Assembly (NCBI GenBank): GCA_902787955.1
Contig: CADAIJ010000002.1
Coordinates: 1 to 64,000, forward strand
Length of the DNA stretch: 64,000 nt
DNA from: an uncultured Erysipelotrichaceae bacterium
GTDB lineage: Bacteria > Bacillota_I > Bacilli_A > RFN20 > CAG-826
Direction of reading: 5' to 3'
Translations under genes and position numbers: made by a program
The notes under the pieces: generated by a model
The model's database searches: none
The model's input: the letters and a program-made list of their open reading frames with translations, nothing else
Told to the model about the DNA's origin: nothing
Shown here: piece by piece, positions 1,916 through 21,167 of the stretch
Layout: each line of letters begins with the position of its first letter
How positions within the stretch are numbered: position 1 is the first letter of the stretch

Positions 1916-3208
1916 GGACTAGTCAACAAAAAGTAGACAGTTCAAAAAAGCATCAATACCCCATGTCAGTTTTATGCTGATGTGGGGTTTTGTATTTAAG
2001 ACAATACATTGGACGTTCATGATTATAGTAATAGATATACTCTTTTATCAAAGATAAAACGTCGTCACACTTCTTCAAATTGAAGTCGATAAATAACTCA
2101 TCCTTAATCCAACCATTAAGAGATTCATCTATTGGATTGTCTGTCGGAGTTCCTGCTCGAGACATTGAATGAATAATGTTATTATTAATTAGAAGCTTGT
2201 TATAGGCTTTAGAAGAATAAACCGAGCCTTGATCTGTGTGCAAAATAGATGAGCCAGTTTGTTCTTTTTCTTTTATAAGCTCTATAACCTGTTCTAATCC
2301 TTCAAAATATGGTTTTATATCGCCTTTCCGATCAGTTAATCCAAATCCCACAATTTCACGGTTGAATGTGTCAAAATATAACGTTAATTCGTAATAGATT
2401 CCTTTGGAATAGAATGTTGTCATATCCGACACTATTATTTCTAATGGCTTAGATGCATTCCAATTATTCCATACGAGATTGTCATATATGTAGTTGCTTT
2501 CCCCAGGTTTCTTATATTTATAATGTTTTGATTCACATATAACTCCTGCATATTTCCTACATCGATATATGTATTCTGGAGACATAATTGCACCATATTT
2601 TCTTTGAATGAACGCCGCTAGCCAACGATAACCATGAGCTTTATGGTTATTTGATTCTTCTTTGATAAATTCAACATCTTTCATTCTTTGAAGATATCTC
2701 TTAGATGGATGGGCTTTTCGATATTTCCATTTATAATATCCACTTCGATTTATATCCATTACATTACAAAGTAATGAAACAGAATATTGTTTAGATAATT
2801 CTTCTAAGACTTCATATTCAAGTCTTTGATAGTAACGTATTCCTTTTTTGAACCAACTCCTTTCACTTGGTACCCTTTTTTTTTCTCTGGTTCTGTTTTT
2901 CTTATTTCTCAACCCCACAAGATGATTGTACCCATGAGACGTCTTTCCTGTTTGACTACGCAATCCATCAAGACCGAATTCTTGATATCTCCGACGCCAT
3001 CTGGTCAATACACGTACATTAATATCGTATTTGCTTGCTGTTTTATTACGACCTTCATTAAAACTTTCTAAAACAATCCGCTCCTTCTCTTCGGCAGATC
3101 GCATTGTATTTTTCGATTTTTCCCGCATATAAACCTCCTTTGTAATAGAATAGCAAAGAAAAAAGTGGATGGGGCTTTTTACCCTTGTCCACTTTTATCC
3201 TAGTACTT
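1915..3208. mobile_element. IS3-family insertion sequence (about 1.29 kb)
   Basis: A single transposase gene on the minus strand is flanked by imperfect inverted ends: left ACTAG..AAAAAGTAGACA at about 1918-1939, right complement ACTAG..AAAAGTGGACA at about 3184-3205. The element is bounded by CATAA at 1910-1914 and 3209-3213, a likely 5-bp target duplication. The exact outer ends are my estimate; the duplication is supported because collapsing it rebuilds a terminator hairpin. Confidence 0.75.
1953..3128 (-). CDS. IS3-family DDE transposase, OrfAB in one frame
   Basis: 391 residues. Residues 10-65 are a helix-turn-helix (RSAEEKERIV..NVRVLTRWRRRYQEFG). Residues about 100-390 are the IS3/IS150-type integrase core with catalytic D235 (VSDMTTF), D299 (HTDQGSV) and E335 (PIDESLNGW). 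IS3 elements normally make OrfAB by -1 frameshifting; here OrfA and OrfB are already fused. A run of nine A then GGG (complement of 2873-2884) lies at the junction, residues 82-85. A -1 slip there would meet a stop within about four codons and give an OrfA-sized product of about 88 residues. A strong AAAGGAGG lies 6 nt before the ATG. All key residues are present, so it may be active. Confidence 0.93.
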   Translation of the reverse strand: MREKSKNTMRSAEEKERIVLESFNEGRNKTASKYDINVRVLTRWRRRYQEFGLDGLRSQTGKTSHGYNHLVGLRNKKNRTREKKRVPSERSWFKKGIRYYQRLEYEVLEELSKQYSVSLLCNVMDINRSGYYKWKYRKAHPSKRYLQRMKDVEFIKEESNNHKAHGYRWLAAFIQRKYGAIMSPEYIYRCRKYAGVICESKHYKYKKPGESNYIYDNLVWNNWNASKPLEIIVSDMTTFYSKGIYYELTLYFDTFNREIVGFGLTDRKGDIKPYFEGLEQVIELIKEKEQTGSSILHTDQGSVYSSKAYNKLLINNNIIHSMSRAGTPTDNPIDESLNGWIKDELFIDFNLKKCDDVLSLIKEYIYYYNHERPMYCLKYKTPHQHKTDMGY

Positions 3209-3227: not shown

Positions 3228-3261
3228 TGTGGCACTTTTGTGACAAATAGTGTGCTAATAT
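3228..3261 (+). promoter_or_regulatory. Shared tandem TGTGNCACA-type box plus -10 (copy A)
   Basis: TGTGGCACT (3228-3236) and TGTGACAAA (3239-3247) are two degenerate copies of a TGTGNCACA palindrome spaced 11 bp centre to centre, one helical turn. TGC-TAATAT (3253-3261) is an extended -10 element. The box occupies the -35 position. The same arrangement stands before 4733 and 6477. The identity of the binding protein is unknown. Confidence 0.55.
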
Positions 3262-3284: not shown

Positions 3285-4631
3285 ATGAAAAAGAAATTAG
3301 TCTTAATGACGTCTGCTCTTATGGCTATGGGATTTTTAGTTGGCCTTGCAGATGTTCATGAAAATAGTGTTCGTGTGGAAGCAAAAGACGCCATTGATGT
3401 TACAATCGCAAAATCACTTAGCGCGAGTTATTCATATTGGGGATGTTACTATGTTTGTTTTGCAGATGAAACCGGAGATATGGCATTTAGGTTTAAGGTT
3501 GAGAATGATGCTGAAGTAGAACAAAATCACCACTTAACACCAAATAAGACTTATTACTTAGTTAATATGGATGCAAGTAATAGTTATGTAACAATTAGTG
3601 AGGAAAAGTTTGAATATGCCAATGCATCTTTAAAATTATATTCCGATGAAAATGATTACATTGGTTATGAGGCAGAGGTTGAACTAAATAATGGTGTGTA
3701 TTATTCCTTACATGAAGCCGAACCAATGAGTGGGGAAATGGCTATTGACGAATATAAAGATCAATATGGACAGATTACTTTAACTGATACAGAAACTGGT
3801 TCTAGATTTCATTTTGTCATTAGTAATATTGAAGATGGGATGACATATAATCTTTCCAATTTTATTAGTTCCAAGTATTGCTATATTAGAGATAGATATT
3901 GGAATTATAGAGAAGCAACTTTTAAAAGAACAACTGATGCAAATGGATTAATCCATGTTGAAGCCACAGTTTTAACTGAACATGGAGATTATTTATCTTT
4001 AGAGTATAATGATCCAGAGCCTGTTGCTGTTACAGGAGTTACGTTAAACAAAACATCAACTACTTTAAAATTTGGTGGCAGTGAAACTTTAGTGGCCACT
4101 GTTTCTCCGGATGACGCTGAAAATAAGAGTGTAACCTGGTCAAGTAATAATGAAAACGTTGTTACAGTCGATGAAAATGGTGCGTTAACCACTGTTGATG
4201 TCGGTAGTGCAACTATTAAAGTCACCACAGTAGATGGCAATTATGAAGCTACTTGCGACGTAACTGTTACTGAATCAGCGTTAAGTGTTACAAACAAGAT
4301 TAACGCTTTACCAGATTCTAAAGATGTTACTCTTAACGACGAAGCCGCTATTGAAAAGGCTAGAGCTGCGTATGATTCTCTTGACGCTGACGAAAAAGCT
4401 TTAGTTTCACAAGAAAAATTACAAAAGCTAACTAGCGACGAAGATGCTTTAGCAAAACTCAAAGCAAGCGCTCCACAAGGCTTATCTGGTGGTGCTATTG
4501 CAGGTATCGTTATTGGCTCTATCTTAGGATTAGCACTTATTGCTTGTGGTGTTCTCTTCCTTCTTCATAAAAAAGGAATTATTGTTATCCCATTTCTTAA
4601 AAAGAAAGAAAAAAGCAACGAGCAAAAATAA
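3285..4631 (+). CDS. Secreted, membrane-anchored Big2-domain surface protein
   Basis: 448 residues. Signal peptide at residues 1-34 (MKKKLVLMTSALMAMGF..). Residues about 35-245 are a beta-rich region I do not recognise. Residues about 246-330 are a bacterial Ig-like Big2 domain (VTGVTLNKTSTTL..VTVDENG..ATIKVTT). Residues about 335-395 are a charged helical module (NKINALPDSKDVTLND) common in S-layer and adhesin proteins. Residues about 400-425 form a C-terminal transmembrane helix followed by a Lys-rich tail, so the protein stays attached outside the cell. GAAGGAG lies 7 nt before the ATG. It follows the tandem-box promoter and is closed by the hairpin at 4655. Likely a surface or adhesion protein; ligand unknown. 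Confidence 0.8.
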   Translation: MKKKLVLMTSALMAMGFLVGLADVHENSVRVEAKDAIDVTIAKSLSASYSYWGCYYVCFADETGDMAFRFKVENDAEVEQNHHLTPNKTYYLVNMDASNSYVTISEEKFEYANASLKLYSDENDYIGYEAEVELNNGVYYSLHEAEPMSGEMAIDEYKDQYGQITLTDTETGSRFHFVISNIEDGMTYNLSNFISSKYCYIRDRYWNYREATFKRTTDANGLIHVEATVLTEHGDYLSLEYNDPEPVAVTGVTLNKTSTTLKFGGSETLVATVSPDDAENKSVTWSSNNENVVTVDENGALTTVDVGSATIKVTTVDGNYEATCDVTVTESALSVTNKINALPDSKDVTLNDEAAIEKARAAYDSLDADEKALVSQEKLQKLTSDEDALAKLKASAPQGLSGGAIAGIVIGSILGLALIACGVLFLLHKKGIIVIPFLKKKEKSNEQK

Positions 4632-4654: not shown

Positions 4655-4682
4655 AAGCCGCCTATATCGGGCGGCTTTTTTT
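4655..4682 (+). terminator. Intrinsic terminator of the cassette (intact copy)
   Basis: AAGCCGCC (4655-4662) pairs with GGCGGCTT (4670-4677) and is followed by a T-run. It ends directly at the next tandem-box promoter. Equivalent hairpins lie at 1902/3215 (split) and 6392. Confidence 0.85.
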
Positions 4683-4714
4683 GTGGCACATTTGTGACAC
4701 ATGATGCGTATAAT
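4682..4714 (+). promoter_or_regulatory. Shared tandem TGTGNCACA box plus -10 (copy B)
   Basis: TGTGGCACA (4682-4690) and TGTGACACA (4693-4701) are both perfect 9-bp palindromes, with 11 bp between centres. TATAAT at 4709-4714 is the -10. No sigma-A -35 hexamer is present at normal spacing, so the box probably binds an activator or repressor at the -35 position. Confidence 0.6.
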
Positions 4715-4732
4715 ATGTGTGAGGTAATTAAT

Positions 4733-6175
4733 ATGAAAAAGAATTCTTTATTCGCTCTTACTTCTATTTCTATAGTAACTTTATCAATATGTATCGGCGT
4801 TGTTGCTTTTACGGGAAACAATAATATTATTAGTATTCGAACTCGGGCTGATCAAACATATTCACTCACTATTGATCAAAGCAACTTTTCTAATTTTTCT
4901 CCTGTCGAGGAAGGATTATATAGAGGAACATTCAAAACTGCTCTTGGTAACGATATAACATTTACTACAAATAAAGTAGCAAATATTATTGATAACAAAC
5001 TATACTTTAGCATTAATAATTATTTGAAGAATGACAATGCTTTGTCAGGCTTGAAAAGCATTGAAGTATATGCTGAAGCATCAAAGCCATACGAAGGGGC
5101 TTTTCCAACTGTAAGAACGGAAATGCTTGTTGATCCAAGTCAACCTGAATCGTTTTATTATGTTGATCAACTCACAAATACAGAAAGTCTTGTGACCTAC
5201 ACAATAAACATTCCTGAAGAAAGATCCGGCAATTATGTTAATTTAAAAATAATTGATACAGAAGAAGCCGATGGAACACTTAAGATTTCATCAATAAAAT
5301 TCTATTTTAGTTGTTCAAACACTGTAAACCCTATCGAAGTTTCTTCTAGTAATGATAGTTATGGAACAGTTTCTATCGAAGGTTCTGATAATAAGAGAAC
5401 GGCTGTGAAAAATGGTACCTCAGTTACTGTTCACGCAAATCCAACTCCTGATTTTGAAAATGAGCTATTTTACTCATTTAAAGGTTGGCATTTGAATGGT
5501 AGTGAAGAATGCATTAGCACAAACCCTGATTACACATTCACCACAGTAAAAGATGCTTCCTATTCTCTCGTTGCTGAATTCGTTGAAGAGAGTAAAGAGG
5601 TTTTTACTGAAGGAGTTAGATTGTGTTCGTCAGGAGACCATGGAATACTTTGCGATGAAGAAAAGGACACATTTGTAAAATCATATGATGGAGCATATTA
5701 TGGGTTTGAAAGTGGCTGTGAAGGCTCTAATTATCAGAATTTGGATGAAAGGGGTAATGGCAATTTATGGCGTCAATATGCTAATGGTCAAAAGATGCCC
5801 ACACCTTATCTAATTTTAAATAAAAACCATGATAACTACTATTATAAGGAAGACGAACATAGCATAGCTAATAAGGTAACAGTTAAGGATTTTGATCCAA
5901 GCGTTGTCTCGTGTATTGAACTTGTTTTCGATAAAAATAGCAGCTACGCTAGAGATGACTTATCTATTTCTGATGGCGCCACCTCATTTGGTCACACCAA
6001 AAAAAGCATAACTGATACAGATTCAAAGACAATTTCAAAGTTCTTTATAACAAACTTTGGCACAAGTAATATTAAAATAAGTATTCCAGACAAGATTGAA
6101 AGTCAATACTTCTTCCAGCTCAAACGTGTAGTGGTTCACTATAAAGTCGTTATTCCTGAATTACAAAATGACTAA
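4733..6175 (+). CDS. Secreted protein with InlB/Divergent-repeat-like domain
   Basis: 480 residues. I start at 4733 (MKKNSLFALTSIS) because it gives a signal peptide (residues 1-25) and has GAGG 8-10 nt upstream; an in-frame ATG at 4694 lies inside the promoter box. Residues about 30-195 are a beta-rich domain. Residues about 200-285 match the divergent InlB B-repeat pattern (YGTVSIEGSD..GTSVTVHANP..YSFKGWHLNG..YSLVAEF). The remaining 190 residues are unrecognised. There is no membrane anchor or sorting signal, so it is probably released or non-covalently bound. It shares its promoter element with 3285 and 6477. Confidence 0.7.
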   Translation: MKKNSLFALTSISIVTLSICIGVVAFTGNNNIISIRTRADQTYSLTIDQSNFSNFSPVEEGLYRGTFKTALGNDITFTTNKVANIIDNKLYFSINNYLKNDNALSGLKSIEVYAEASKPYEGAFPTVRTEMLVDPSQPESFYYVDQLTNTESLVTYTINIPEERSGNYVNLKIIDTEEADGTLKISSIKFYFSCSNTVNPIEVSSSNDSYGTVSIEGSDNKRTAVKNGTSVTVHANPTPDFENELFYSFKGWHLNGSEECISTNPDYTFTTVKDASYSLVAEFVEESKEVFTEGVRLCSSGDHGILCDEEKDTFVKSYDGAYYGFESGCEGSNYQNLDERGNGNLWRQYANGQKMPTPYLILNKNHDNYYYKEDEHSIANKVTVKDFDPSVVSCIELVFDKNSSYARDDLSISDGATSFGHTKKSITDTDSKTISKFFITNFGTSNIKISIPDKIESQYFFQLKRVVVHYKVVIPELQND

Positions 6176-6405: not shown

Positions 6406-6417
6406 GGCGGCTTTTTT
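6392..6417 (+). terminator. Intrinsic terminator of the cassette (copy C)
   Basis: AAGTCGTC (6392-6399) pairs with GGCGGCTT (6406-6413) with G-U pairs, then a T-run. It abuts the tandem box at 6417. Confidence 0.75.
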
Positions 6418-6448
6418 GTGGCACATTTGTGACATATAGTGTGATAAC
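6417..6448 (+). promoter_or_regulatory. Shared tandem TGTGNCACA box plus -10 (copy C)
   Basis: TGTGGCACA (6417-6425) and TGTGACATA (6428-6436) repeat the arrangement of copies A and B. A TGATAAC sequence (6442-6448) is in the -10 position. It drives the small zinc-ribbon peptide gene at 6477. Confidence 0.55.
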
Positions 6449-6476
6449 ATCTAATTAACAAAGGAGAACTTTGAAT

Positions 6477-6761
6477 ATGAGAAAAGACTTACTTTTAGGT
6501 TTGAGCGAAGAACAAATCGCTAAAGTCAAAGCGTGCAAAAATCATGAAGAATTACTTGAGCTTGCTAAAAAGGAAGGTGTCACATTAACCGAAGAACAAT
6601 TAGCTGTTGTTAGTGGTGGTGGTGCTTGCAGTGTTGTTTCAGATATCGGAGATTATATTAATCCAAATGATTGTCCAAGATGTGGTAGTAATAATATTAA
6701 AGACAAAGGCACCTATTATATCTGCCAAAGCTGTGGCTACAAAATTGAAAATTACGATTAA
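6477..6761 (+). CDS. Nif11-leader-like peptide with zinc-ribbon core
   Basis: 94 residues. Residues 1-50 resemble a Nif11-type RiPP leader: amphipathic helices (LLLGLSEEQIAKVKACKN, HEELLELAKKEG), then LTEEQLAVVSGGG with the double-glycine cleavage motif. Residues 51-94 contain CPRCG and CQSCG separated by about 15 residues, a rubredoxin/zinc-ribbon arrangement, plus one more Cys (GACS). An ATG at 6477 follows AAGGAG by 10 nt; an in-frame TTG at 6471 would be 4 nt away. The leader suggests processing and export, but no peptidase-ABC transporter or modifying enzyme is in the window. It may be a secreted peptide whose core binds zinc, or a small protein that borrowed a leader-like helix. Confidence 0.75.
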   Translation: MRKDLLLGLSEEQIAKVKACKNHEELLELAKKEGVTLTEEQLAVVSGGGACSVVSDIGDYINPNDCPRCGSNNIKDKGTYYICQSCGYKIENYD

Positions 6762-6774
6762 ACAAACGAGTATA

Positions 6775-6797
6775 ACCGAGCAAAACTCGGTTTTTTT
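6775..6797 (+). terminator. Intrinsic terminator after the zinc-ribbon peptide
   Basis: ACCGAG (6775-6780), loop CAAAA, CTCGGT (6786-6791), then seven T. Confidence 0.9.
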
Positions 6798-20492: not shown

Positions 20493-21167
20493 GTGGAGTT
20501 CCTATATGAAAAACGTTATATCATTATTCCTTTATGCATTGCTGTTGGTATCGTTTTAGTTGCGGATATCCCTTTAGTTGTTTTGGGTATTAGAACAAAT
20601 AATCTTTATAAGGACTACTCGTATTTAAAAGACGATGAGAATTATTCTTCAAAGGTTGAGGTTAATGGTGTAAACCTAGTTACTCAACATATTTCCTGTG
20701 GATATGCTTCTATTGAGATGTTATCTGAATATTATGGTAATAAAGTAACTGAGGATGATTTGAGCGCTAAAAATAACGGAAACATAACAACATCTTCCAC
20801 CGGCGGATTTTTAAATGAAATAAATGCTTCAATTACTAATAAGAACTTTGTTTTAAAGAGTTATCTTACAAACGATGAATTATTAAAAGAAATTCATGAT
20901 TCTCTTTCTAACTCAAATCCTGTTCCAATTGAGTGGGCGGCTAAATATGATAATCAATGGACATTACATTTTTCCGTTGTTACTGGATTAGATATTAAAA
21001 ACGATTCTGTCACTATCTATAATCCTTATGGCTATATTGAAAACATCAGTGTCAGTAGTTTTGTTGATCGAACAACATTTACTGCTTATGATAGAATGCC
21101 GTTTTATTATGGCTATGGATTTGTTTTTGGAGCCTTCGATAAAAACGCTATATTTGTCGCGAAATAA
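20493..21167 (+). CDS. Membrane-anchored C39-like cysteine protease
   Basis: 224 residues from GTG. Residues about 8-32 are a transmembrane anchor. Residues about 60-210 are a papain-like C39_2 domain: QHISCGYASIEM (catalytic Cys), HFSVVTGLD (His), NPYG (Asn/Asp). The start is doubtful. The GTG has no Shine-Dalgarno, while an ATG at 20506 has GGAG 8 nt upstream but is in another frame and stops after 17 codons (MKNVISLFLYALLLVSF). One extra T in the TTTT run at 20554 would join that signal peptide to the protease. Probably cleaves extracytoplasmic peptides. Confidence 0.75.
   Translation: MEFLYEKRYIIIPLCIAVGIVLVADIPLVVLGIRTNNLYKDYSYLKDDENYSSKVEVNGVNLVTQHISCGYASIEMLSEYYGNKVTEDDLSAKNNGNITTSSTGGFLNEINASITNKNFVLKSYLTNDELLKEIHDSLSNSNPVPIEWAAKYDNQWTLHFSVVTGLDIKNDSVTIYNPYGYIENISVSSFVDRTTFTAYDRMPFYYGYGFVFGAFDKNAIFVAK

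Follow-up and report, generated by a model that had tools for sequence, protein, structure and literature searches.

A stretch of 64,000 nucleotides (nt) from an uncultured Erysipelotrichaceae bacterium (contig CADAIJ010000002.1; G000:C2:1-64000), hereafter the window, carries a gene at 6477-6761 whose product joins a Nif11-type double-glycine leader to a zinc-ribbon core. The gene is one of 18 ribbon genes in this genome, the assembly of which is 1.50 Mb in 14 contigs and 94.3% complete. It is likely that these zinc-ribbon proteins undergo leader-guided cleavage by a C39 peptidase and leave the cell through one shared exporter, coordinated by a common promoter box, to act as secreted effectors or signals.

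Leader and core of the precursor peptides

The open reading frame (ORF) lies on the plus strand, as do all window features below unless stated otherwise. It runs from an ATG at 6477 to a stop codon at 6759-6761 and encodes 94 amino acids (MRKDLLLGLSEEQIAKVKACKNHEELLELAKKEGVTLTEEQLAVVSGG, then GACSVVSDIGDYINPNDCPRCGSNNIKDKGTYYICQSCGYKIENYD). The ORF is not a chance one, because the genome contains 19 matches to its product, including itself, with the best paralogue at E 8e-42. Profiles and alignments define residues 1-48 (6477..6620) as a Nif11-type, double-glycine leader ending in ...TLTEEQLAVVSGG(G). The first-pass annotation, made from the letters alone, had described the first half as such a leader and the second half as a CPRCG...CQSCG zinc-ribbon pattern, and profile searches bear out both descriptions. 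Pfam Nif11 (PF07862) scores 23.9 bits on the peptide against a gathering cut-off of 23.8, which is borderline but sufficient (23.8 bits with the full 94 amino acids), and 63 of 72 aligned homologues match it at E<=0.01. The core, residues 49-94 (6621..6758), matches the TFIIB-type zinc ribbon of Pfam at E 7.1e-6 with 25.9 bits, below the family cut-off of 29. The four Cys residues of its knuckles, C66-P-R-C69-G ... C83-Q-S-C86 (6672..6734), are invariant in the 72 aligned homologues, an invariance that is partly built in since the homologues were picked for CxxC...CxxC. Cleavage after the first GG would leave residues 49-94 (46 amino acids) and cleavage after GGG residues 50-94, the predicted mature start from residue 49 or 50 onward being GACSVVSDIGDYINPNDCPR. 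Release of the core after GG is thus predicted as before, with limits of 49-94 or 50-94 in place of the 51-94 given earlier. The calculated average mass of the 46-residue core is 5057.5 Da in the apo form and about 5120.9 Da with one Zn.

CxxC...CxxC cores are found in 18 of the family members of this genome, with 12 arrayed on contig C5, one each on C8, C9, C1 and C13, and two on C2. The 19th family peptide, at C2:121584, has the same leader on a short core, ACTTEDEDHKKRKIDS. A broken leader fragment in the C5 array (C5:5459-5650, L009) represents a decayed paralogue and takes a 20th place.

A leader-only profile retrieves 325 distinct peptides from all loci then gathered, and 303 of them are kept (22 dropped) when the leader must be full, GG must fall around residue 48 and X must be absent. 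CxxC...CxxC is present in 269 and missing from 34, some of which are contig-edge fragments; the 269:34 ratio is no census, because resemblance to ribbon peptides was the basis on which loci were collected. In the 269 ribbon peptides, the leader retains L-12 in 267, Q-8 in 267, L/I/M-7 in 267 and V/I-4 in 262, and the window peptide carries L-12, L-7, V/I-4 and G-2 G-1 of C39 double-glycine substrates. LahT is described as a promiscuous protease for Nif11 leaders on which V-4, L-7 and L-12 dock (PMC6363468). These docking positions (V/I-4, L-7 and L-12) are kept together in 262/269. Loss of the leader among homologues, which the first-pass annotation had named as evidence against its own view, is therefore not the pattern found: the positions read by C39 peptidases (L-12, L/I/M-7, V/I-4) are kept across the ribbon homologues. 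The GG in 269/269 is not evidence, since it was required for entry into the set.

A Pro residue after the first knuckle Cys and Gly residues after C2 and C4 are a zinc-knuckle signature. Among the 269 ribbon peptides, they occur in 243, 212 and 204, respectively; the C2-C3 spacing is 13-28 and the core length is 35-56 residues, with two longer. A fifth Cys, Cys51 in the window peptide (6627..6629), stands between GG and the ribbon and has an equivalent in 269/269, at core position 1-5. All 34 non-ribbon peptides likewise have a Cys within the first three core residues. Such an extra Cys is thus common to both types of peptide and is not imposed by the selection.

AlphaFold2 models the whole precursor (72 sequences) with a mean predicted local distance difference test (pLDDT) of 62, with three leader helices and core blocks at about 80. 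Residues 46-62, mostly below pLDDT 50, make up a linker of low confidence immediately past GG. Modelled by itself, the core (69 sequences) reaches a mean pLDDT of 75 and about 87-90 over residues 21-40. The best matches of Foldseek to this core in the PDB are zinc ribbons (L37Ae, TFS4 and PhnA-like) at a root-mean-square deviation of about 1 Å, with 28-29 residues in the better-superposed matches. These fold matches weakly support a zinc ribbon for the 46-residue model, adding to the sequence signature.

The exporter locus and its distribution

A C39-peptidase ABC transporter and a second core on the same leader had been proposed as things to look for in this genome, and both are found at one locus outside the window (C2:123 kb). 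The gene for the short, hydrophilic core is followed on one strand by genes for a radical S-adenosylmethionine (SAM)/SPASM enzyme, a short HlyD-like protein, a C39-peptidase/ABC protein and a second ABC protein, with STAS genes downstream and a response regulator gene upstream. The exporter is under the same promoter box as the window gene. The C39 ABC protein scores 855.3 bits with TIGR03796 (NHLP), above the cut-off of 853.3, and the companion NHLP models remain below theirs (TIGR03797, 654.2 against 709.4; TIGR03794, 21.4 against 156.2). The closest solved relative of its C39 domain is LahT150 (PDB 6MPZ, E 1.2e-59).

Exporter loci were mapped in 33 cases, with L172/L173 counted once and L013 and the diverged L186 included, and 12 of them hold ribbon genes in the stretch taken. 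In L169, the radical SAM and HlyD genes flank a ribbon gene; in L190, a ribbon gene separates the box from the short-core gene; and in L175, L180 and L200, one comes next after the final gene found in the exporter operon. The short-core gene is located directly 5' of the radical SAM gene in 16/33. Short hydrophilic cores beside the radical SAM gene, at L013:7579-7779 and in other exporter loci, often end in RKIDS/RKIES, and the short-core peptide is a candidate inducing peptide of the regulon.

Other genes lie close to the exporter. At L013:4528-6303 and L188:14018-15895, a MATE transporter fused to HATPase_c_2 (anti-sigma-kinase-like) is encoded beside it together with STAS proteins and a SpoIIE-HATPase protein, which suggests a partner-switching signal system. 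Ahead of the exporter locus, L013:233-4531 encodes a single-module nonribosomal peptide synthetase (condensation, adenylation, carrier, thioester reductase), and a gene judged by eye to resemble a phosphopantetheinyl transferase is found at L012:13716-14306. The window itself contains a second, weak C39-like domain (20685-21062; 29 bits) in a frame of 227 amino acids, which is too short for an ABC part.

The ribbon/leader family occurs in 45 of 224 host-family genomes and in 9 of 35 genera. A full-length C39 ABC gene is present in 32/45 ribbon-positive compared with 3/179 ribbon-negative genomes (Fisher p 6e-25), and in 17/18 compared with 0/101 at >=90% completeness. The C39 classes were read from open-frame length, and the 35 genomes with an ABC-length frame include G018, whose match lies at a contig edge (147-amino-acid frame). 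The exporter of G161 is split by a contig edge and falls outside this set; counting it in gives 33/45. Two of the three exporter-bearing ribbon-negative genomes, G150 and G085, have diverged exporters (47-48% identity), and the third, G020, carries on a short contig an exporter that is a near orthologue (84%). A phylum-wide draw of 392 genomes contains the family in 5, all from the host's own family. A scan of genome contigs yields 77 loci in metagenome-assembled genomes labelled Erysipelotrichaceae, Bacilli, Bacillales, one Saccharibacteria, and Lachnospiraceae/Pseudobutyrivibrio, several of which bear names that refer to rumen, omasum or abomasum samples. In Lachnospiraceae, each of the six ribbon-bearing genomes inspected encodes a member of this exporter lineage (72-73% identity) together with the radical SAM protein (66-69%).

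Because the radical SAM gene adjoins the exporter and has orthologues in 30/45 ribbon-positive genomes, the core Cys residues could instead be modified, for example into thioether cross-links, by this radical SAM/SPASM enzyme, one enzyme acting on many substrates that would have no zinc site. The extra Cys, which follows GG in all ribbon cores and lies early in each of the 34 others, may then be the common modified residue. Such modification in place of a zinc site is unlikely, because the zinc-knuckle residues are kept at the frequencies given above and both profiles and folds match zinc ribbons. Consistently, G035 (L180; 89% complete) combines the exporter with 12 family matches, and a radical SAM orthologue was not found in it. 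LanC is absent from 224/224 host-family genomes, which also speaks against this explanation and by which a lanthionine origin is rejected. Modification of the extra Cys alone would be compatible with a zinc ribbon.

A direct-repeat promoter box

The window gene is preceded by the direct-repeat box TGTGGCA-CATT-TGTGACA (6417..6434), in which two heptamers are separated by a 4-nt spacer with an 11-nt period and which overlaps the -35 region and is predicted to bind an activator. An extended -10 element, TGATAACAT (6442..6450), and a ribosome-binding site, AAAGGAG (6460..6466), recognised by its sequence, follow, and an intrinsic terminator (6774..6797) lies 3' of the gene. With its own box, extended -10, ribosome site and terminator, the gene therefore reads as a single-gene unit. 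An alignment of 163 distinct boxes from all loci then gathered has TGnTAnnAT at a constant distance and no separate -35 hexamer. In the window segment 6392-6434, the T-run of an upstream terminator-like stem abuts the box, and T-runs also lie 5' of many other boxes.

The first-pass annotation also placed the gene under the same box as the secreted proteins. Indeed, TGTGGCACWTTTGTGACA occurs at 3228, 4682 and 6417, before the ORFs at 3285, 4730 and 6477. The first two boxes (3228..3245 and 4682..4699) precede genes for a secreted/surface protein (3285-4631) and a secreted protein (4730-6175), both taken as regulon members and not as cargo. These two proteins carry a Big_2 domain and a weak InlB-like repeat. 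In L091, from another genus, a homologue (by eye) of the 4730-6175 gene stands directly after a ribbon gene. A transposase with an integrase core, on the minus strand at 1953-3128, adjoins the regulon genes. Carriage by phage was considered and rejected, one partial match being obtained in a viral contig collection.

The box pattern TGTGRCANNNNTGTGRCA has 23 exact sites in the genome, and the reversed-pattern control has 0. Sixteen sites are assigned to ribbon genes, two to the short-core gene (overlapping to give three heptamers), one to the HlyD/exporter genes, three to secreted-protein genes (window 3285, window 4730 and L012:3555) and one points off a contig end. Thus, 16/18 ribbon genes have a box, and the two without their own, C5:6657 and C5:6323, come after C5:6980 in the same direction. 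In the wider set, a strict box lies within 120 nt upstream of 111/265 ribbon genes tested, with 39-43 nt from box end to ATG in 106/111; 85/154 ribbon genes without a strict box sit closely behind another family member. Boxes are present in 38/45 ribbon-positive compared with 21/179 ribbon-negative host-family genomes. Ribbon and box counts are correlated with a rho of 0.88 across positives outside genus g3 and of 0.54 across all 45, g3 being box-poor. A role of the box as a ribbon-only signal is ruled out by its occurrence in the 21 ribbon-negative genomes and before secreted-protein genes.

The response regulator of the exporter cluster has a clear receiver domain. Its C-terminal 134 amino acids have no Pfam match, and one OmpR-type structure (1p2f) aligns with the protein beyond the receiver. 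This neighbouring regulator may bind the box.

Proposed export, core exchange and relation to known systems

In the proposed mechanism, the ribbon precursors would be induced together through the direct-repeat box, probably via the response regulator encoded beside the exporter. The 48-residue Nif11-like leader would dock on the C39 peptidase domain of the NHLP-type ABC exporter and be cut off after Gly47-Gly48, leaving the 46-residue core. The core would then be exported and fold outside the cell round one zinc ion held by C66/C69/C83/C86. One exporter would serve all 18 ribbon precursors and the short-core peptide encoded next to the radical SAM gene. Possible roles of the extra Cys are those of a radical SAM site, a disulfide partner or an attachment point.

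Several observations weigh against this mechanism. Zinc ribbons are usually cytoplasmic. The TIGR03798 Nif11-leader model gives the window peptide 15.5 bits against a curated cut-off of 32.3, no Foldseek match to the core reaches E<=0.001 (best E 0.012), and the best Z of VIA is 3.3. An exporter of this lineage was undetected in 12/45 ribbon-positive genomes, and no exporter orthologue was found in G167 (94% complete, 17 family matches). Boxes occur in ribbon-negative genomes, as given above, and 0/42 Lachnospiraceae ribbon genes with sufficient upstream sequence have one. The general intracellular occurrence of zinc ribbons, the transcription and ribosomal ribbons among the best profile and fold matches, and the 12 genomes without a detectable exporter would suit a cytoplasmic regulator or nucleic-acid binder that has retained a Nif11 helical domain and whose GG is never cut. 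Such a protein is highly improbable here, because the C39-specific positions are kept in 262/269, because the exporter co-occurrence, common box and operon linkage point to export, and because the low-confidence linker of the AlphaFold2 model begins directly after GG.

The window core and a core from a different genus (L136; on contig CADCDA, which is linked to G169) differ at 7/138 nt, whereas their leaders differ at 45/144 nt, and the similarity of the cores continues into the terminator. Among 193 between-genome pairs chosen by core identity (cores >=90% identical), core DNA identity is more than 0.15 above leader identity in 20, and the reverse is found in 0. The plain reading of these sequences is that cores pass between leaders with a break at GG. 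Positive selection on cores was not seen, the pooled ratio of nonsynonymous to synonymous substitution rates being 0.08-0.22 for cores and 0.11-0.13 for leaders in pairs whose choice by core identity biases the core values. Within-genome leader homogenisation is slight (identity of 0.733 in the same genome compared with 0.709 in different genomes).

Because core types recur almost unchanged between species and cores are swapped between leaders like cassettes, the ribbons probably act outside the cell as effectors or signals. As a special case of export, they could be class II-type bacteriocins with a zinc-stabilised fold, in keeping with the GG leader, the C39 exporter, the co-regulated multi-gene family and a box arrangement that resembles regulated bacteriocin loci. 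This identity is rather doubtful, as many core types are conserved between species and are not diversifying, and no partner gene recurs downstream. The downstream test covered 254 ribbon genes (15 were dropped at contig edges) for an immunity partner <=200 nt downstream on the same strand, upstream and opposite-strand genes being outside it. None recurs, the largest recurring group being 4: the next gene within 200 nt is a family member in 106 (73, plus 33 by clustering), no ORF meets the criteria in 118, and other ORFs follow in 30. Classical bacteriocin pairs are therefore unlikely.

A broader picture, which is about evenly poised, is that rumen Bacilli and Lachnospiraceae secrete libraries of folded zinc-ribbon mini-proteins, as many as about 23 per genome, by way of a single Nif11-leader/C39 exporter. 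The cores would be cassettes recombined at GG, each with one extra N-terminal Cys for attachment or modification that the radical SAM-linked short peptide also has, and zinc would replace disulfides in an anoxic habitat. The ribbons would then form a group of bacterial effectors or signals that are secreted and folded around metal. If export is true, RiPP-type leaders, known from ribosomally synthesized and post-translationally modified peptides, would export small folded metal domains, beyond unstructured or cross-linked peptides. Gut anaerobes would repeatedly have put to extracellular use a fold that is regarded as intracellular. Core exchange at GG would illustrate how leaders and cores behave as separate modules in nature. 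Processing, metal binding and function are directly testable with over 250 cores from nature, the matching C39 protease, which is closely related to a characterised enzyme, and a promoter box of defined sequence.

The Nif11 leader, the C39 exporter and the zinc ribbon are each ordinary, and their combination is new to the literature searched and well supported by genomics; no paper joining Nif11 and a zinc ribbon was found among open-licence full texts of PubMed Central. Small CPxCG zinc-ribbon proteins are cytoplasmic and leaderless. The present peptides resemble them (e.g., PDB 8q5b) in the four-Cys CPxCG/CxxCG ribbon and in size and differ from them in the GG leader and extra Cys. The predicted promoter box resembles the sites of Streptomyces SARP activators, which are heptameric direct repeats overlapping -35 (PMC10972967), in its heptamers, 4-nt spacer and -35 overlap. 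However, its sequence differs, and the C-terminal domain of the response regulator has no Pfam match. A SARP regulator combines a winged helix with a BTAD domain.

The closest parallels are found among Nif11-derived precursors. Their N11P motif is given as ELSDEELEAVAGG (Haft 2010, PMC2887384). N11P precursors including prochlorosins (TIGR03798/PF07862) share with the ribbon peptides the Nif11 leader, here ending in ELTDEQLxAVSGG, the large paralogous families and, as proposed for the present peptides, an NHLP-type exporter that serves many cargoes (PMC2887384). In contrast, their cores are described there as short Cys/Gly/Ser-rich stretches (PMC2887384), whereas ribbon cores have 35-56 residues (2/269 longer). 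The present family also differs in the absence of LanC from the 224 host-family genomes, in the conservation of core types between species and in the score of the window peptide below the TIGR03798 cut-off. The LahA/LahT system of Lachnospiraceae C6A11 (6MPZ) likewise presents diverse cores on Nif11 leaders to one C39 ABC exporter; LahA peptides, however, sit in a lanthipeptide operon (PMC6363468), whereas the present peptides carry zinc ribbons.
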